Virus record (IMG/VR): IMGVR_UViG_3300033998_000186
Coordinates: 1-52,002 of that record
Reading direction: 5' to 3' (one strand)
Length of the DNA: 52,002 nt
Source of the DNA: a virus
Shown: piece after piece, positions 2,898 through 36,840 of the stretch
Layout: each line of letters starts with the position of its first letter
Numbering within the stretch: position 1 is the first letter of the stretch
Program-made: the position numbers and the translations under genes
The notes under the pieces: generated by a model
Seen by the model: only the letters and a program-made list of their open reading frames with translations
What the model was told of the DNA's origin: nothing
Databases searched by the model: none

Positions 2898-3922
2898 ATA
2901 ATCAGGAATATTGGCGAAAGCGCAGTGAAGAGATAGCTGCGCTACAGTTCAATAAATCAGATGAATATGCAGCAAAACTCCAGAAAGAGTACGAGAAGGC
3001 TGTAGTTTCAATACAGCGCGATCTGGAAGTTTTCTATGAGCGCTATGCTGAAAATAATGAAATCAGTATGGCCGAGGCAAGAAAATTGCTCAACAGTAAA
3101 GAGCTCAATGAATTTCGCTTAACGGTTGAGGAATTTATTGAGAAAGCTAAAGACAATGCTGACGGGCGATGGACTAAAGAATTAAATAACATCTACTTTA
3201 AGACGCGCATCAGCCGATTAGAAGCTCTCTTAACGCAAATAAGACAGCAGGCGGAGATGGTAGCCGGAAATACTTATAAAAGCACGACGGCCCTGCTGCA
3301 AGATGTTTATACGGATACTTATTACAGAACGCTGTTTGAGGTGCAAAAAGGAACAGGCATCGGCGTGTCTTTCGCTAAAGTGAATGACAAAGCATTAAGT
3401 AAGGTTTTGCAGACAAGATGGATTGGCGAAAATTACAGCGAACGCATATGGGGGAACCGAGATAAGCTGGTTTACGAACTTCAAACAAAACTGTCACAGT
3501 CATTCATACGTGGAGACAGCGTAGATCGCGCGGCTAAAGCATTGGCGGAGAGAATGAATGTGTCATATTCGAATGCTGCCCGGATTGTAAATACCGAAAG
3601 CAGTTTTATAGCGCATCAAGCCACAGCAGATAGTTATGAAGCAAGCGGCATAATCAAGCAATATGAATATTTGGCCACGTTGGATAACAGGACAAGCGAA
3701 ATTTGCAGGAGCATGGATGGCAAAGTATTTAATTTGAGCGATAAACAGGTAGGCATAAATTGGCCGCCGCTTCACCCAAATTGCAGGTCAACAACAGTCC
3801 CATACTTTGGGGACGAGGAAGATATAGGCGAGCGCATTGCCAGAGATGCTTCAGGCAAAACATATTATGTACCGGGGAATATGACATATGAACGATGGTA
3901 TGACAAATATGTGACGAAGTAA
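2894..3922 (+). CDS. Minor head protein, MuF/SPP1 gp7-like (module A)
   Basis: The 342-residue protein has a long helical N-terminal half and a C-terminal MuF-type domain. That domain shows the family signature NTESSFIAHQAT, then TLDNRTSEICRSMDGKVF, and ends with LHPNCRSTTVPYF. Such proteins bind the portal and enter the prohead in low copy; some are ejected with the DNA. Length and ending are those of the plain family, unlike the much longer metallopeptidase fusion at 38.4 kb. It is coupled to the portal by an ATGA overlap. Confidence 0.9.
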   Translation: MNNQEYWRKRSEEIAALQFNKSDEYAAKLQKEYEKAVVSIQRDLEVFYERYAENNEISMAEARKLLNSKELNEFRLTVEEFIEKAKDNADGRWTKELNNIYFKTRISRLEALLTQIRQQAEMVAGNTYKSTTALLQDVYTDTYYRTLFEVQKGTGIGVSFAKVNDKALSKVLQTRWIGENYSERIWGNRDKLVYELQTKLSQSFIRGDSVDRAAKALAERMNVSYSNAARIVNTESSFIAHQATADSYEASGIIKQYEYLATLDNRTSEICRSMDGKVFNLSDKQVGINWPPLHPNCRSTTVPYFGDEEDIGERIARDASGKTYYVPGNMTYERWYDKYVTK

Positions 3923-4015
3923 AAACGCCGTTTTGGTATTGTCGGCGTAAAACAACAAGACATCACCGGACGCGACCGGGATAAAAAAGCGAAGATGAAA
4001 GGAGATAATCAAGTT
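3923..4015 (+). other. Short intergenic stretch with GC stem before the scaffold gene
   Basis: Directly after the minor-head stop the sequence ACGCCG...CGGCGT can form a short stem-loop, followed by a second weak pairing CCGG/CCGG. There is no T-run, so it does not look like a terminator. It may be an mRNA stability or pausing element between head genes. This is inference from pairing only. Confidence 0.3.
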
Positions 4016-15329: not shown

Positions 15330-15864
15330 TGATATTAGGGAATATTGGGTTGAAGAAATAGCAAATTTATTGGAATTTGACTTACTGGCTGATATAGAAA
15401 ATTCTGAACTTAATAAAGTTAAACAAGCAATTGATGATTTGTTAAATGACCAATTCATAGAAACTGCTACTGAATACGGGATTGCAAAGCGTGAGGCAAT
15501 ATTGGATATTATTCCATATGGCGACGATACGCTTGAGACAAGGCGATTCCGAGTAGTAGGCAAATGGATGAATAGGCTACCATATACTATGCGCATGTTG
15601 CAGGAAAGGCTTGATGCTTTGTTAGGCGCTGGATGTTATGAAATAACACTGCATAAAGAACCATATACTTTACAAATTAAAATAGAGCTTATCGCCAAGC
15701 GGCAATTTGAAGCAGCACAAAATATGATAAGCGAGATAGCGCCGGCCAATTTAAAGCTTATAGTTGAACTGCGCTATAACCAGCATATCAAGCTTAGCAA
15801 TTTAACCCACGGGGCCATGAGCTCTTATACTCACGCCGCTTTAAGAGAGGAGGCTTTTAATTGA
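15322..15864 (+). CDS. YmfQ/DUF2313-like baseplate protein (XkdU-like)
   Basis: The 180-residue product has EYGIAKREAILDIIPYGDDT, then LETRRFRVVGKW and MLQERLDALLGAGCYEITLH, typical of the YmfQ/XkdU family. It connects the gpJ wedge to the tail fibre. It overlaps the J gene and ends 4 bases into the fibre gene start (TTGA overlap). Confidence 0.9.
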   Translation: MPDDIREYWVEEIANLLEFDLLADIENSELNKVKQAIDDLLNDQFIETATEYGIAKREAILDIIPYGDDTLETRRFRVVGKWMNRLPYTMRMLQERLDALLGAGCYEITLHKEPYTLQIKIELIAKRQFEAAQNMISEIAPANLKLIVELRYNQHIKLSNLTHGAMSSYTHAALREEAFN

Positions 15865-17930
15865 ATACAACACCTAAATTAGGACTAAGAAAGCCAGCGC
15901 AAGAAGATTTCTATAATGTTGACGATTTCAACTATAACGCTGACATTATAGATGTTAATGCTGATATGGTAAATACGGAACTCGCAAAACGCATAATTAA
16001 TGTTGGTAATACCCCATCTATCCAATCCGGCCTAGACGCGGAAAAGCCGGTGGCTGGCACGCTGGGCAGGCTGTATATTGCTACTGATACGCAGATAATA
16101 TACAGAGATAACGGTTCGACATGGGTAAAAGTTGGCGTTGTGAGGTGGAACGATATAGATGGTAAGCCCACTACATTCACACCAAGCGCACATACTCATG
16201 CTGGAACAGACATAACGTCAAAGGTATCATCTGCGGCTTCGGCTGATAGCGTACCTTGGTCTGGTGTTAGCGGCAAACCCGCTACATTTACGCCGTCTGC
16301 CCACAAATCCACTCATGCGACCGGTGGCAGCGATGCATTGACCGCATCTGATATAGGCGCTGAAACGCCAACTGGTGCTCAAGCCAAAGTAGATGCTCAT
16401 GCTGCAATCACCGTACAAACTGGTATTCACGGATTGCGATATTACAACGATATCCTGCAATTTTTTAATGGTACTGAATGGATTGAAATTGAAACAGGAG
16501 GTGGTGGAGTTCCGCCGTCTAATGTAATAAATCCAACAATTAGTATTGGGAATGGACAACTTACAATTAAGTGGACTGACCCAAACGATACTGTAATTGA
16601 TGGTCAACTGATATCAACATGGGCGGGAACAAAGCTTGTAAGGAAGGTGGGAAGCTTTCCTGTTAATGAAAAGGACGGGATACTTCTTGTTGATAATAAA
16701 GTAAGAGGCGCTTATGCTATCAATGGATTTGTTGATACTGGATTAACTAATGGTACAACTTATTATTATCAATTGTTTCCTTACAACGATTTAGGTGCAG
16801 TCAATAGAAACGTTGCAAACAGACTTTCAGCCACACCACAGCCCTTTAAAATCTTTGGTGTTAGGATTGACCTTACTAACAGTAATCCAGCATCAGCAGT
16901 AACTTATACTGATGATGCAGTTGGAATGACTGCCGGTTCTTCTGCATGGGATAGTATGGCAATATTCAAGGACATAAAACCTTGTGTACTTAAAAATGGT
17001 GTTGTTCAGTATTATTTGAATCCAAATGATTTTACCAAGAAGGCTGATGGAAGTGCTGCTGACATAACGTCAGGTAATGATGGGGATGTAATGATTGAGA
17101 TTCCAAAGACAGGATTCAGCATCACAACTAATGGTAATTACATTGATGTAAAGGTAACGGATAATCCAAACAACGCTGCTTTTAAATATTATGCACATTC
17201 CAGGGCTGCTGAAGGGGATAGACAAAAGCTTTATATTGGTGCATACAAAGGTTATAAAGACGGTTCAAATAAACTTCGTTCTTTGAGCGGTAAAGCACCA
17301 ACTGTAAGCCAAACCATTGGAACATTTAGAAGCCAAGCACAAGCTAATGGAAGCGGATATGACATGCTTTCTTTCTATCCTCTAACATTGATACAATGCT
17401 TGTACTTGATTAAATATAAAAATCTTGATTCACAAACCGCTCTTGGGCAGGGTTATGTTGGCGGAACTGCTGCACAAAATACAGGTGCGACTAATTCCAG
17501 CGGGATGTGTTATGGTAGTACAAGCACAACCAGCAGAGTAAAATTATTTGGTATTGAAGATTTCTGGGGGAATATATGGGAATGGATTGATGGATTATAC
17601 AGTGATGCAAGCAGAAACATATTAACAGCTTTTCAGAACTTTAACGATACTGGGAACGGATATACAAACAGAGGACAGGGCGCAACAGCAGATATTGGCG
17701 GATATATGAGCAAACCGCAAGGGACAAGCGAGTCTGGATTCGTCATTAAAGAAGCTGCTGGCTCGAGCACGACTTATTTCGCGGATTATGCGTATTTGTC
17801 TGCTGGCTGTTTGCCTTTTTTCGGCGGTGATTGGGATAATGGTACTTATGCGGGTGCCTTTCGTCTTAGTGTGTACTATTCCGCGTCGTATTCTTTTGCG
17901 AACGTTGGCGCTCGCTTGATGTACCTATAA
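15861..17930 (+). CDS. Tail fibre with C-type-lectin-like C-terminal domain: DGR target protein
   Basis: The start is TTG 15861 with GAGAGGAGG upstream; 689 residues. The N-terminus (TPKLGLRKPAQEDFYNVDDF) is the fibre type that attaches to XkdU-like baseplates. Short stalk repeats with FTPSAHTHAGTDI and FTPSAHKSTHATGGSDALT follow. A fibronectin-like segment spans roughly residues 220-330. From about 370 to the end lies an FGE/CLec-type domain with FGIEDFWGNIWEWIDG, as in known DGR variable proteins. Residues about 641-687 are the VR, rich in aromatic and small residues. Codon use changes near 16.5 kb (Ile ATA gives way to ATT), suggesting the receptor-binding half was acquired. It should bind the host surface at the tail tip. 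Confidence 0.93.
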   Translation: MNTTPKLGLRKPAQEDFYNVDDFNYNADIIDVNADMVNTELAKRIINVGNTPSIQSGLDAEKPVAGTLGRLYIATDTQIIYRDNGSTWVKVGVVRWNDIDGKPTTFTPSAHTHAGTDITSKVSSAASADSVPWSGVSGKPATFTPSAHKSTHATGGSDALTASDIGAETPTGAQAKVDAHAAITVQTGIHGLRYYNDILQFFNGTEWIEIETGGGGVPPSNVINPTISIGNGQLTIKWTDPNDTVIDGQLISTWAGTKLVRKVGSFPVNEKDGILLVDNKVRGAYAINGFVDTGLTNGTTYYYQLFPYNDLGAVNRNVANRLSATPQPFKIFGVRIDLTNSNPASAVTYTDDAVGMTAGSSAWDSMAIFKDIKPCVLKNGVVQYYLNPNDFTKKADGSAADITSGNDGDVMIEIPKTGFSITTNGNYIDVKVTDNPNNAAFKYYAHSRAAEGDRQKLYIGAYKGYKDGSNKLRSLSGKAPTVSQTIGTFRSQAQANGSGYDMLSFYPLTLIQCLYLIKYKNLDSQTALGQGYVGGTAAQNTGATNSSGMCYGSTSTTSRVKLFGIEDFWGNIWEWIDGLYSDASRNILTAFQNFNDTGNGYTNRGQGATADIGGYMSKPQGTSESGFVIKEAAGSSTTYFADYAYLSAGCLPFFGGDWDNGTYAGAFRLSVYYSASYSFANVGARLMYL
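17782..17922 (+). repeat. DGR variable repeat (VR) at the 3' end of the fibre gene
   Basis: This 141-bp segment aligns without gaps to 17971-18111 (offset 189). I count 30 mismatches, all opposite TR adenines: 19 A-to-G, 9 A-to-T and 2 A-to-C. Identity outside TR adenines is complete (95 of 95). It ends 5 bases before the fibre stop codon, the usual place for a VR. Confidence 0.96.
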
Positions 17931-17970
17931 ACTTAATATGGGCAACTAATTTAGGTGGAAATATACACAT

Positions 17971-18111
17971 AAGATTATACGAATTTGTATACTAGCTATT
18001 TACCTATTTTCAGCAGTAATTGGAATAATGGTACTAATGCAGGTACCTTTCATCTTAATGTGAACAATTCCACGTCGAATTCTAATGCGAACATTGGCAC
18101 TCACTAAATGT
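17971..18111 (+). repeat. DGR template repeat (TR)
   Basis: This is the non-coding partner of the VR, starting 48 bp after it and in the same orientation. It holds 46 adenines, of which 30 differ in the VR. Read in the VR frame it is full of Asn codons (AAT/AAC) at the variable sites, the known design that lets adenine mutagenesis reach many residues without making stops. It carries a TAA where the VR has TTG, confirming that it is not itself translated. Confidence 0.96.
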
Positions 18112-18117
18112 TTTTAA

Positions 18118-18267
18118 GAAAAAAGTGCTTTGGTTGCCCTGCCACAAGGATGGCTGAAATGGTGCGATAGTTATAGACTTTCAAAGAAGTATGTTAAACC
18201 AATCCAAAAGTATTTAGATGATTATTATAATACAAAAATTAAAAGAAAGAAGGTTGTACAGACATGA
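18118..18267 (+). pseudogene. Remnant of the DGR reverse transcriptase (last ~49 codons)
   Basis: An open frame after a TAA at 18115 runs to TGA 18265-18267. It reads ALVALPQGWLKWCDSYRLSK, then KYVKPIQKYLDDYYNTKIKR and a basic end. The GWLKWC-SYRL-KYIKP-like pattern is what I recall for the extreme C-terminus of DGR reverse transcriptases. No start codon, ribosome site or catalytic YxDD region precedes it, so about 1 kb of RT appears to be missing between the TR and this stub. Its TGA overlaps the next ATG (ATGA), the coupling expected if a full RT gene once stood here. The RT identity is from pattern memory and needs a profile search. Confidence 0.62.
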
Positions 18268-18533
18268 AGGATATAGGAATTGTATTTGGTAGCGCTAAAC
18301 AGGCTGTCCCTTTGATTGTTGGCAAAGATACTGTTTATGTCCATTCTGACATTCAGCAGATTTTAGAAGATAACGAAGGAAAGCCTGTTACTAATTTGTT
18401 TCAGTATCACGAAATCCAATATGATAAGGATGAATATATCAAACTTATAGCAGAAAAAAATGCGGATTTGGGACGTCAATTAACCGATACGCAGCTTGCT
18501 TTAGTTGAAATCTATGAAAGCGTGGTGGTATAG
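18264..18533 (+). CDS. Small tail-fibre-associated phage protein, unknown function
   Basis: The 89-residue product begins MKDIGIVFGSAKQAVPLIVG and has a helical C-terminus (LGRQLTDTQLALVEIYESVV). Genes of this size and ending commonly lie just after the fibre gene in clostridial phages, where a fibre chaperone or tail accessory role is possible but unproved. Here it follows the RT remnant with an ATGA overlap. Its base composition resembles the DGR segment. Confidence 0.65.
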   Translation: MKDIGIVFGSAKQAVPLIVGKDTVYVHSDIQQILEDNEGKPVTNLFQYHEIQYDKDEYIKLIAEKNADLGRQLTDTQLALVEIYESVVV

Positions 18534-18641
18534 ATGGCAAAAATTTATGCTTATTTAATTCTAAAAGGACTTAAAACTCTTGACGATGTTCCTGAAATAA
18601 TTAGAGCCGAAGTGCAAGCAATATTGGATAATGAGGCTTAA
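18534..18641 (+). CDS. CD1375-type small phage protein
   Basis: ATG 18534, right after the TAG of the previous gene, opens 35 codons. They read MAKIYAYLILKGLKTLDDVP, then EIIRAEVQAILDNEA. The pattern AYLI..G.KTLDDVPE..R.EV..IL matches the short CD1375-type proteins found before lysis genes in clostridial prophages. Function is unknown. Confidence 0.75.
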   Translation: MAKIYAYLILKGLKTLDDVPEIIRAEVQAILDNEA

Positions 18642-18680
18642 GGCCACTTGAATAATTTATGACAGAAAGGATAACGGCCG

Positions 18681-18941
18681 ATGAGTGAAAATGAGTGGTA
18701 CGACAACAAACAGCTTTATGAAATGCTGCAAGACGTCAAAAGCGATATAGCAGTAATGCGCAAAGAAATGGCCGAGACGCGGACACTGATAAGAGACTAC
18801 AATGGATTGCGCGAAAAAGTAGACGAAACATGTGAGAGAATCGGCAAAGTAGAAAGCTCTATGACTACAATAAAATGGCTCATACCAATAATCATAACAG
18901 GTATGGGCCTTGTTTTTACATTTTTGAATTTCATAAAGTGA
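18681..18941 (+). CDS. XhlA-like lysis accessory / holin-like membrane protein
   Basis: The 86-residue protein has a charged, helical, coiled-coil N-terminal part (about 1-60) and one C-terminal membrane segment (TIKWLIPIIITGMGLVFTFL) followed by a short basic tail. This is the XhlA/BhlA layout; such proteins work with a holin to deliver the lysin. It directly precedes the amidase and holin genes. Confidence 0.82.
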   Translation: MSENEWYDNKQLYEMLQDVKSDIAVMRKEMAETRTLIRDYNGLREKVDETCERIGKVESSMTTIKWLIPIIITGMGLVFTFLNFIK

Positions 18942-18950
18942 GGCGATAAT

Positions 18951-19649
18951 ATGGCATATAGAATATTCATTGATCCGGGGCATGGTGGAAAAGACCCGGG
19001 GGCAATAGGGCCTACTGGATTAAAGGAAAAAGATGTTAACCTGGACATAGCAAAAAGGTTAGGGGAATTGCTCAAGGTAAATGGTATAATGGTAAACTAT
19101 ACTAGAACAACGGATATATTCGTTGACTTGGGAGAGAGGGCGGCCATAGCGAACCGTTGGGGCGCTAACTATTTCGTGAGTGTGCATTGCAATGCTTTTA
19201 CTGATAGACAAGCGAACGGAGTAGAAACATATTGCTATGACTTCGGCGGCGAGGGCGAGAAACTAGCTAGGAAGGTACAAGCCACCGTAGTCAAGGCGAC
19301 CGGATTAAAAAACCGGGCAGACGTAAAAAAAGCCGGATTTACGGTATTGGAAGAAACCGCCATGTCGGCAATATTGGTTGAGACGGCTTTTATTAGCAAT
19401 CCGGTCGAGGAGAAAAAGCTAGCGACGCCAGCTTTTAGGCAAACGGTAGCGGTAGCTATAGCGAAAGGTATATGCGAATATTTGGGCATAGGTTTTATCG
19501 AGGCAAAGCCGCCGGCTAAAGATGATAATGCGCCGGACGGTAAACTCTATAAAGTACAAGTAGGAGCTTTTAAGAACAAGGCTAACGCCGAGGCCTTGTT
19601 GCAAAAACTTAAAAAAGCCGGTTTCGACGGCTTTATAAAATTAGAATAG
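18951..19649 (+). CDS. Endolysin: N-acetylmuramoyl-L-alanine amidase (Amidase_3) with C-terminal SPOR-like domain
   Basis: The 232-residue enzyme starts FIDPGHGGKDPGAIGPTGLK with zinc ligands His (in GHGG) and Glu (in LKEKD), then SVHCNAF and the catalytic Glu in AILVETAFISN. It cuts the amide bond between MurNAc and the stem peptide. Residues about 195-232 (LYKVQVGAFKNKANAEALLQ) form a SPOR-type domain, which binds denuded glycan strands. There is no signal peptide, so release needs the neighbouring holin. Confidence 0.94.
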   Translation: MAYRIFIDPGHGGKDPGAIGPTGLKEKDVNLDIAKRLGELLKVNGIMVNYTRTTDIFVDLGERAAIANRWGANYFVSVHCNAFTDRQANGVETYCYDFGGEGEKLARKVQATVVKATGLKNRADVKKAGFTVLEETAMSAILVETAFISNPVEEKKLATPAFRQTVAVAIAKGICEYLGIGFIEAKPPAKDDNAPDGKLYKVQVGAFKNKANAEALLQKLKKAGFDGFIKLE

Positions 19650-19906: not shown

Positions 19907-20084
19907 GCAGATAGCGAACGCGGCCATAACCGAATTGGCCGACGTTTGGAATAAATATTGTGACGCGTTTGAAGAGCCGATCTACGGATCGTACGTTTTA
20001 TGGCACCTCAACAGGGTACAAAAGCTTATTTGGGATGAAATAACGGAGCAAAAACGCAAAACGCTCCCAGACGCTCATATTTAA
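19899..20084 (+). CDS. Small hypothetical protein at the end of the lysis cassette
   Basis: The 61-residue product (MNEQIANAAITELADVWNKY) overlaps the holin gene by 8 bp and is the last gene before the terminator. It is acidic at first and basic near the end, helical, with several Trp/Tyr residues and no motif I recognise. Coupling to the holin suggests a lysis-related or morphogenetic role, but this is only inference. Confidence 0.6.
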   Translation: MNEQIANAAITELADVWNKYCDAFEEPIYGSYVLWHLNRVQKLIWDEITEQKRKTLPDAHI

Positions 20085-20196
20085 CCTGTGTTGCGTTTTA
20101 CCCCCTTGGTAGTATGATTACCTTAGTCACCTTTATAGAAAGGCCTTAAAAGGCAAAATCTTGGACATTCTGTCGAGTAAATCGCCAACAACTTCC

Positions 20197-20234
20197 ATCG
20201 CGGAAAACTTTATAAAGTTTTCCGCGATTTTTTT
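20197..20234 (+). terminator. Rho-independent terminator closing late module A
   Basis: Bases 20197-20228 form a perfect 32-nt palindrome (ATCGCGGAAAACTTT and its complement), giving a ~15-bp stem with a minimal loop, followed at once by a run of Ts to 20234. It lies 113 bp after the last lysis-cassette gene and just before a new promoter, so it marks the end of the late operon. Confidence 0.92.
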
Positions 20235-20244
20235 ATAAAAACAG

Positions 20245-20273
20245 TTGACAAGTGTGTATAAGTATGATATGAT
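20245..20273 (+). promoter_or_regulatory. Sigma-A-type promoter for the PAPS-reductase-like gene
   Basis: TTGACA at 20245-20250 and TATGAT at 20268-20273 are separated by 17 bases, with a TG one base before the -10. The core is repeated almost base for base before the next gene (21291-21319), including the downstream GATATAACTATC and TAAAGGAAAGG. Confidence 0.85.
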
Positions 20274-20304
20274 ATAACTATCATAAAGGAAAGGAAATAA
20301 AACA

Positions 20305-21285
20305 ATGGAAAAATGGGAACTAAAACAAAGACAATCTTTACCACTTGGAGCCAAGATCAATATGTCGATCCGCCGTATAATAGACTGGTACGAATACTGG
20401 GGCGGCGACGTATATGTTTCATATTCGGGCGGTAAGGACTCAACCGTGCTATTGGATTTGGTACGACAGGTCTATCCAGACGTAGAAGCAGTGTTCGCCG
20501 ATACCGGGCTTGAATACCCGGAAGTGCGACAGATGGCTAAGGAATACGGAGCAGTATTCTTAAAACCTACAATGTCATTTAGGCAGGTTATATTAAAATA
20601 CGGTTACCCTATCGCGAGCAAAGAACAGGCTGATTATATTAGCCTAATGCGAAAAAATCCCGCAAATATTGAAGCTTTTCACGAATGGATGTCCACAGGG
20701 AAGGCCAGCCACCCTACTTACGCGTTCGAGAAATATATTTTAGGCAAAAGAGGCAACGACTATACTTCTTTTAAAATCTCCAAAAAATGGTACCCGCTTC
20801 TTGATGCCCCATTTAATACTTCATCCGCCTGCTGCGCGATGATGAAAAAGAACTCCTCCAAAAAATACGAACGCCAAACGCACAAACATCCATTCGTTGG
20901 TACGCTTGCATCAGAAGGGGAACGCCGTATGCAAAACTACTTAAAAAACGGCTGCAATGCATTCGAAGCCAAAAGGCCAGTAAGCACACCAATTGCGTTT
21001 TGGACTGAAAACGACGTACTTGAATATATAGTTGCTAAAAATCTCAAGATTGCGTCGGTATATGGCGATATAGTTAGACTAAACGATGGCACATATACTA
21101 CTACTGGGTGCGACAGGACAGGTTGTATGTTTTGCATGTTCGGCTGCCATTTGGATAAAGAACCCAATCGGTTTAAGAGGTTAGCTAAAACGCACCCCAA
21201 AATATACGATTACTGTATGAGATCCACAGAAGAAGGCGGGTTAGGATTAGCCAAGGTGCTAGACTTTATCGGAGTTCCACATTAA
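20305..21285 (+). CDS. PAPS-reductase-family (PP-loop) phage protein
   Basis: This is a 326-residue N-type ATP pyrophosphatase. The PP-loop SGGKDS lies at residues 41-46, followed by AVFADTGLEYPEVR. A CCAMMKKNSSKK segment stands in the middle with GTLASEGERR after it. A Cys-rich stretch CDRTGCMFCMFGC lies at about 269-281, possibly a metal or Fe-S site. The family includes PAPS reductase, DndC and related sulfur- or adenylate-transfer enzymes. Phage copies are common but their substrate is generally not known. It stands outside both structural modules with its own promoter, so it may be a moron-type gene. Confidence 0.85.
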   Translation: MEKWELKQRQSLPLGAKINMSIRRIIDWYEYWGGDVYVSYSGGKDSTVLLDLVRQVYPDVEAVFADTGLEYPEVRQMAKEYGAVFLKPTMSFRQVILKYGYPIASKEQADYISLMRKNPANIEAFHEWMSTGKASHPTYAFEKYILGKRGNDYTSFKISKKWYPLLDAPFNTSSACCAMMKKNSSKKYERQTHKHPFVGTLASEGERRMQNYLKNGCNAFEAKRPVSTPIAFWTENDVLEYIVAKNLKIASVYGDIVRLNDGTYTTTGCDRTGCMFCMFGCHLDKEPNRFKRLAKTHPKIYDYCMRSTEEGGLGLAKVLDFIGVPH

Positions 21286-35287: not shown

Positions 35288-35647
35288 TTGGCGAAGTTGA
35301 AGTTAACTCCTGAATTAATAGACAAAGCATGTGAATTACTATTAGATGGTAATTATGTAATTACCATTTGTAAATGCTTAGATATATCCCATGACGCTTG
35401 GTACCGATGGTTAAAGTTCGGTAAGGCTCAAAAAGAAGGAATTTATCACGATTTCTATGAAGCCGTTACGCGCGCGGAGAATGAAGCCGAAGCAAAAATG
35501 GTAGAATTATGGCGGCAGCATATGCCGAATGATTACCGCGCAATCAGGGATTTTATGGAACGGCGCTATCCCGAACGATGGGGGCGGCATGATAGAATGG
35601 ATTTAAATCATTCAGGCAATGTGGAGATAAAAGTTGAATGGCTATAA
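35288..35647 (+). CDS. terS: Terminase small subunit (module B)
   Basis: TTG 35288 is the likely start (MAKLKLTPELIDKACELLLD), because GAGAGGTGAG lies just upstream; a GTG at 35279 overlaps that site. The ~119-residue protein has an HTH-like DNYVITICKCLDISHDAWYR and the C-terminal FMERRYPERWGRH that also ends the partial small terminase at the window start. It recognises the packaging site. It overlaps the large subunit by 10 bp. Confidence 0.86.
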   Translation: MAKLKLTPELIDKACELLLDGNYVITICKCLDISHDAWYRWLKFGKAQKEGIYHDFYEAVTRAENEAEAKMVELWRQHMPNDYRAIRDFMERRYPERWGRHDRMDLNHSGNVEIKVEWL

Positions 35648-36840
35648 CAAAACCTAAGATGAACAAAGCATATAAGCCGCTTGTTGAAGATACGAACAGG
35701 TTTAAGGTTATTTATGGCGGCGCGGGTAGCGGCAAAAGCGTTTTTGTCGCGCAATGGTTTATATTGCTATGCTTGAAAGAGGTTGGGCACAAATTTTTAA
35801 TAGTCCGCAAAGTGGCAAACACTTTGCGGTATTCTACTTTTGCGCTGATAAAGCAGATTATAAGCGATTGGGAGTTAACTGCTTATTTTACAATAAATAA
35901 ATCAGACATGACTATTACTTGCGCAAATGGAAATCAGTTTTTATTTTTGGGCTTGGATGACGTTGAAAAATTAAAATCTATTGTGGGTATTACTGATATT
36001 TGGATTGAAGAAGCCAGCGAAATAACACAGAACGACTTTGAACAGATTAACTTGCGTTTGCGCGGAGAAACAAAAGTTAATAAGCAAATAGTATTGACAT
36101 TTAACCCGGTCGTTCAGGGGAAATGGCTAAAAGAATATTTTATTGACCGAGAGCAAGACAATGTAACGGTGCTCCAGACGACATACAAAGATAATAAGTT
36201 TTTAGACGAGGAATATATACAGGAATTGCAGGAGCTGCAGCAAAAAGATGCTTATTTTTACCAAGTTTACAGCCTGGGGGTTTGGGCAGAATTAGGCAAT
36301 ACAATTTATACCAATTATATTATTGAAGAGAACCCACTAGAAGATACCGCGTACAAGGCTATATACTATGGGCTTGACTTTGGTTTTAATGACCCGACGG
36401 CACTTTGCAAAATAGGTATTAAAGACGATGAAATTTATGTATTGGATGAACTGTATCAAACGCACCTTGATAATTCACAGCTAATTAAACTGTGCAAGGA
36501 GCGTGTTAATAAAACAAGATGGATAATAGCAGACAGCGCCGAGCCGGCTAGGATACAGGAGTTCAAAAAAGCGGGTTTTAAAATACGCGCTTGCACTAAA
36601 GACAAGGATAGCGTACGGTTTGGCATTGATTTTATAAAGCGCAGAAAATTGCATATACATCCGACATGCCAGAATTTTATAAATGAAATTCAAGCGTATA
36701 AATACCGCGAAGACCGGGCAGGCAATATACTGGATGAGCCGGTAGATGTAAACAACCATTTGATGGACGCATTGCGCTATGCGACAGAACTAATGCGCAA
36801 AGAGCGCAAGCCAGTAACTAGTAAACCGATAGGATGGTGA
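35638..36840 (+). CDS. terL: Terminase large subunit, PBSX/SPP1 type (module B)
   Basis: The 400-residue motor has Walker A GGAGSGKS at residues 27-34, Walker B-like DIWIEEASEIT, and the coupling segment FNPVVQGKWLKEYFID. The nuclease half starts YYGLDFGFNDPTALCKIGI and contains IIADSAEPARIQEFKKAGF and NNHLMDALRYATE. It is from a different branch than the enzyme at 178-1434, direct proof of two phage genomes. Confidence 0.95.
   Translation: MAITKPKMNKAYKPLVEDTNRFKVIYGGAGSGKSVFVAQWFILLCLKEVGHKFLIVRKVANTLRYSTFALIKQIISDWELTAYFTINKSDMTITCANGNQFLFLGLDDVEKLKSIVGITDIWIEEASEITQNDFEQINLRLRGETKVNKQIVLTFNPVVQGKWLKEYFIDREQDNVTVLQTTYKDNKFLDEEYIQELQELQQKDAYFYQVYSLGVWAELGNTIYTNYIIEENPLEDTAYKAIYYGLDFGFNDPTALCKIGIKDDEIYVLDELYQTHLDNSQLIKLCKERVNKTRWIIADSAEPARIQEFKKAGFKIRACTKDKDSVRFGIDFIKRRKLHIHPTCQNFINEIQAYKYREDRAGNILDEPVDVNNHLMDALRYATELMRKERKPVTSKPIGW

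Follow-up and report, generated by a model that had tools for sequence, protein, structure and literature searches.

One question raised by this locus is how the writable end of a phage tail fibre can carry fresh sequence when the enzyme that writes such sequence is gone. Phage diversity-generating retroelements (DGRs) are usually read as self-contained switches of tropism, in which a reverse transcriptase (RT) copies a template (TR) into a target (VR). In the window, by which we mean the whole stretch of 52,002 nucleotides analysed (IMG/VR record IMGVR_UViG_3300033998_000186), the RT has been deleted, and yet the VR appears to be recent.

The initial annotation had described two 141-bp direct repeats, offset by 189, that differ at 30 adenines and agree at all 95 other positions, and had read them as the hallmark of mutagenic retrohoming. 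A gap-free alignment of 17782-17922 with 17971-18111 and a base-by-base count bore this out. All 30 differences over the 141 bp lie at TR adenines (19 A>G, 9 A>T and 2 A>C), 16 of the 46 TR adenines are unchanged in the VR, and none of the 95 non-adenine positions (48 T, 25 C and 22 G) is altered; the probability that 30 random differences would all fall on the 46 adenines is 2e-19. The first two differences stand at the edge of the repeat, leaving a safe core of 139 bp in which 28/28 differences are at TR adenines. Five of the 30 lie in the last ~20 bp of the VR and recur in the window and in two related contigs, L003 and L002 (see below), a constancy that points to fixed IMH/IMH* mismatches and not to variation. 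No second VR or TR was found elsewhere in the window when both strands were scanned with the adenine-masked TR. Judged from these patterns, the pair very probably represents the target and template of a genuine phage DGR, and the VR was almost certainly written by DGR-type retrohoming. The coordinates of the cassette are collected in Table 1.

Table 1. Features of the DGR cassette in the window, and RT-deletion alleles in the window and its relatives.
Feature	Position in the window, or locus	Strand	Basis or remarks
Block identical to L003 except for 15 VR changes	15578-19246		Flanks roughly 5-10% diverged on both sides
Tail-fibre gene (689 aa), DGR target; C-terminal part with predicted C-type-lectin/FGE-like DGR variable-protein fold	15861-17930	+	PHROG, model, Foldseek
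VR	17782-17922 (core 17784-17922)	+	30 differences, every one opposite a TR adenine
Candidate IMH, 3' end of VR	17904-17922	+	Five mismatches to TR, constant in the window, L003 and L002
TR, non-coding; IMH* at about 18093-18111	17971-18111	+	Alignment with VR; identical in L003
Surviving first ~32 nt of the TR-RT spacer RNA, ending ...TTGCCCTGCC	18112-18143	+	Alignment with RT-containing relatives
Deletion junction; most of spacer and RT codons 1 to ~314 gone relative to L002	18143-18147	+	blastn jump
RT remnant without start codon, last ~38 codons (GWLKWCDSYRLSKKYVKPIQKYLDDYYNTKIKRKKVVQT)	18145-18267	+	tblastn
Small conserved gene (phrog_18126), 3' of the RT in RT-containing relatives	18264-18533	+	Start overlaps RT stop
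RT-deletion allele 1	window, L003
RT-deletion allele 2	L054		RT 85-342 lost; TR present but mosaic
RT-deletion allele 3	L081		TR and RT 1-170 lost; second internal gap
RT-deletion allele 4	L091		TR and RT 1-224 lost
RT-deletion allele 5	L095		TR and nearly all of RT lost
RT-deletion allele 6	L110		RT about 22-340 lost; TR and spacer intact; adenine-specific differences

A DGR target is expected at the 3' end of a gene encoding a C-type-lectin-like (or Ig-like) variable domain, and the VR closes just such a gene, while the downstream copy is non-coding, as had been annotated. The 689-aa product matches a PHROG tail protein (E=3e-78), and Baseplate_J and Mu gp48-like genes precede it, in keeping with the contractile-tail setting proposed at the outset. 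A model of its last 356 residues (334-689), built from 25 aligned relatives, has a mean pLDDT of 93.9. In a Foldseek search of the PDB the first match to this model is TaqVP, a Thermus DGR variable protein (5vf4, E=3.6e-11), which the sequence profile of the fibre likewise matches, followed by five Mtd variants (1yu0-1yu4) and then by formylglycine-generating-enzyme (FGE) folds; the match being partial, TM-scores stay at a moderate 0.3-0.5. The fibre end is thus predicted to fold like the known DGR variable proteins TaqVP and Mtd, and the structure prediction upholds the CLec/FGE-like assignment. In relatives, similarity to the fibre begins abruptly at about 16422-16446 (region 16420-16450), and the C-terminus together with the DGR acts like a module that can be swapped between differing N-termini.

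These features are shared with the BPP-1 DGR (mtd / avd / TR / brt), which also has adenine-specific TR-to-VR differences, a VR that ends a gene for a receptor-binding tail protein of C-type-lectin fold, and about five fixed IMH/IMH* mismatches, the BPP-1 IMH having five in 21 bp (PMC3240598). The window differs from BPP-1 in its order, VR-TR-(RT), in which VR and TR have no gene, and so no avd, between them: no plus-strand ORF of at least 60-80 aa lies between fibre and TR in the window or in L002, barring an unsupported ORF through the L002 TR. It further differs in that its RT and most of its spacer RNA are deleted.

The deletion is apparent from comparison with L002 (IMG/VR 3300034759_000077), which is 85% identical in DNA over fibre and TR and in which a 352-aa RT sits between the TR and the next gene. 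The L002 protein belongs to PHROG 1423 (reverse transcriptase), and its best PDB match is 8ub7 (E=6.5e-31), a reverse transcriptase that we take to be the BPP-1 DGR enzyme. The window tracks L002 up to 18143 and then resumes at the last ~38 RT codons, a blastn jump from L002:6742 to 7785, such that a clean deletion of ~1 kb has taken out the catalytic YMDD along with codons 1 to ~314. What remains of the enzyme is a C-terminal remnant (tblastn of L002 RT residues 315-352, 68% identity, E=2e-13) whose TGA overlaps the ATG of the next gene. Other RT-containing cassettes of Bacillota phages (L027, L028 and L058), like L002, share the fibre end, TR, spacer start and downstream gene of the window, but their RT and spacer are intact.

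The structured spacer RNA 3' of the TR has fared no better. Across 20 relatives it is conserved as TTGCCCTGCCnCTTGGCAAAACATAA...CTGTATTGGTAG...GAA.ATTCGG...AACATCAA, with compensatory changes in 9/13 pairs of its fold, whereas the window is truncated after CCCTGCC and keeps only the first half-hairpin. The BPP-1 spacer serves both to recruit the RT complex and to prime cDNA synthesis (PMC12875486). With the error-prone, DGR-type RT and most of the spacer deleted, the cassette has no enzyme and no complete template RNA, and in all likelihood it represents a non-autonomous, RT-less DGR that would be unable to diversify itself. The initial annotation had also expected this element to diversify host range; its DGR-type repeat pair on the fibre end stands, but with RT and spacer deleted any such diversification would require outside help.

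The annotation implied a complete, ordinary DGR, and it is conceivable that the RT lies in an unsequenced part of the phage. The record is linear and not complete, the rest of the genome of phage 1 (the first of two phages that the record resembles, see below) lies outside the 52 kb from which RT absence was read, and some other DGRs have targets that lie far from their RT (PMC7517822). Against this, the RT of related cassettes directly follows the TR, and the window has a degraded RT tail at exactly that place. Furthermore, the whole record has no RT (no match to PF00078, and only the remnant in tblastn with the L002 RT), and none was found in the whole of L057, a 16.5-kb sister contig that includes 7 kb of the early region. 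We therefore regard an ordinary DGR as highly improbable.

A second contig, L003 (3300034520_000070), has the same deletion junction as the window and bears on whether its VR has remained static. Over the 3669 bp of the shared block the two differ at 15 positions, all within the VR and all opposite TR adenines, with zero differences in the TR, the junction and the rest of the block (P about 2e-30 for chance placement). Since the flanks differ by roughly 5-10%, the block must have been shared by recent recombination, and the restriction of the 15 differences to the VR implies that a full VR replacement separates two otherwise identical RT-less cassettes. Partial shared ancestry of the two VRs was considered but is not supported, because they agree at 21/34 core TR-adenine positions, a similarity equal to that between the window VR and the VRs of unrelated phages (19/26, 20/30 and 19/29); they look like independent draws. 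VR variation over a constant TR, the absence of which would have counted against the initial annotation, is therefore present among relatives. Similar behaviour is found in RT-containing pairs: 19/19 VR differences between L040 and L042 are at TR adenines, with 5 differences outside the VR, and 25/26 between L030 and L031, with 10 outside. Turnover of VRs thus likely continues even in cassettes that have lost the RT, a reading that rests on one pair, the only two contigs with this deletion.

The second contig also speaks to whether the RT is really present and was skipped in assembly. Repeats such as VR and TR, together with VR polymorphism, do complicate assembly. The junction, however, is outside both and not at a long repeat, the same junction is found in L003 despite the 5-10% divergence outside the block, and junctions differ in other relatives, which makes an assembly artefact so improbable as to be scarcely credible.

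How, then, would a fresh VR reach a cassette that cannot make its own cDNA? The explanation that we favour, with good confidence, is that this is a phage DGR VR/TR pair from which the RT and most of the spacer were deleted, and that VRs arrive on it most likely by way of RT-containing siblings. The VR would have been written from the window's TR by adenine-specific mutagenic retrohoming with a DGR RT encoded elsewhere, and the cassette would retain its intact fibre and undecayed TR. RT-containing siblings in the same population would generate new VRs, which homologous recombination during co-infection would, as the most likely route, reassort with the deletion allele. We prefer recombination with siblings since the sequences directly show that this region recombines; both the existence of these siblings and the route of VR arrival are what we infer. 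A sibling with an RT and a TR/VR of the window's type was not found in the IMG/VR records searched, where the TR pattern, the adenine-masked VR/TR pattern and the junction pattern returned only the L003 contig. Nor were near DNA relatives of the window found in the phage collection searched, and host genomes of two bacterial orders held nothing close beyond the RT-containing MAGs already known.

Alternatively, both VRs may predate the RT loss, the deletion having spread among VR variants by recombination between VR and junction, with no change since. Just ~240 bp separate the deletion from the variable VR position nearest to it, recombination here is evident from the 3.67-kb block of identity within diverged flanks, and the loss of TR plus RT in L081, L091 and L095 resembles decay. 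Such a frozen relic would nevertheless require breakpoints in a short interval and zero mutation elsewhere in the block, and we consider it rather unlikely. It differs from reassortment with RT-containing siblings mainly in timing.

It is also possible that retrohoming acts in trans: the complete DGR of a second phage infecting the cell, or of a prophage residing in it, would write the VR of an RT-less phage, its TR matching that of the window at all non-adenine positions. There is precedent, as BPP-1 without avd-TR-brt can still switch tropism if a plasmid provides the deleted parts (PMC3240598), and incomplete loci of Thiohalocapsa PB-PSB1 match the TR of another locus at all non-adenine sites and diversify (PMC10907252). 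Moreover, the window and L003 both have fully replaced VRs and both are without RT. However, the TR RNA of the window is without the spacer that recruits the RT and primes cDNA in BPP-1 (PMC12875486), and with this spacer lost a helper would have to bring both RT and TR. The analysis found no such helper, and ordinary phage recombination explains the data equally well. We therefore see a helper-dependent phage DGR, in which RT-less and spacer-less phages with a writable VR are rewritten by co-infecting phages or prophages, as a tentative and improbable proposition; if true, host-range diversification would be a good shared with non-producers.

Earlier work already covers DGRs, their remote targets and loci that are incomplete. 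The Thiohalocapsa loci likewise have VRs diversified without a complete DGR at the locus, for which trans activity or RT-containing structural variants were invoked (PMC10907252), but those are cellular, multi-copy DGRs, whereas the window is a phage cassette that has lost its spacer as well. In Pseudogulbenkiania sp. NH8B a strongly mutated RT lies near distal targets still diversified at adenines, and another RT in the same genome is thought to be sufficient (PMC3521204); no second RT was found for the window. In the open-access papers searched we found no phage DGR with RT and spacer deleted, and no repeated loss of the RT in one phage family. The interest of the locus lies less in the DGR as such than in the exchange of VRs that goes on after the RT has been lost. 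Recombination may separate what a DGR produces from its machinery, leaving RT-less phages to depend on variants made by others; the alternative is that DGRs operate from one genome to another. RT-based surveys of DGRs also miss RT-less cassettes.

Loss of the RT extends to other relatives of the window. The order VR-TR-RT was found in more than 35 related loci (offsets 173-501) by scanning fetched loci for adenine-specific repeats, the close RT-containing kin having Bacillota, Tissierellia and Clostridia MAGs as hosts. Among 33 loci anchored on the small gene after the RT, 22 have a full-length or nearly full-length RT. L086, which begins inside the RT, and L097, L098, L111 and L112, with neither RT nor RT remnant, were left out of the count. 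The 28 cassettes with a readable RT region include six RT-deletion alleles, all with different junctions (Table 1), and we take these as independent events on the strength of their differing alleles. The 3' end of the RT gene is retained in all six. Its stop codon, in both the window and L002, overlaps the start of the next gene, an overlap that probably explains where the deletions can end.

Several of these loci have features of their own. L110 (contig 3300006674_000321, positions 3449-3999) is an RT-deleted cassette with TR and spacer intact and an adenine-specific VR, and its use in trans is more plausible than that of the window; a search by junction pattern found no sibling beyond L110 itself. 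For the orphan VRs of L081 and L091, which have no TR, the best candidate helper TRs have 4 non-adenine mismatches each, and no convincing helper emerged. In L054 (4550-5282) a mosaic TR, L002-like in its 3' part and spacer and L058-like in its 5' part, lies beside the deleted RT. The window itself resembles two different phages end to end, with two large terminases, capsid/minor-capsid modules and tape-measure genes (features at 178-1434 and 35638-36840, junction at 20075-20305). The late genes of phage 1 end at a lysis cassette, a separate replication module follows from ~20.3 kb, and similarity to L057 stops at 20074; the record looks like tandem prophages or a chimeric contig. Finally, the DGR RT of L137 (contig 3300026549_001121, 18600-19900) has in-frame TAG where relatives have glutamine, for instance SYLS*YLANF, and reading TAG as Gln raises the share of its first 20 kb covered by open frames from 0.35 to 0.62; L137 is probably a TAG-recoded phage with a DGR.
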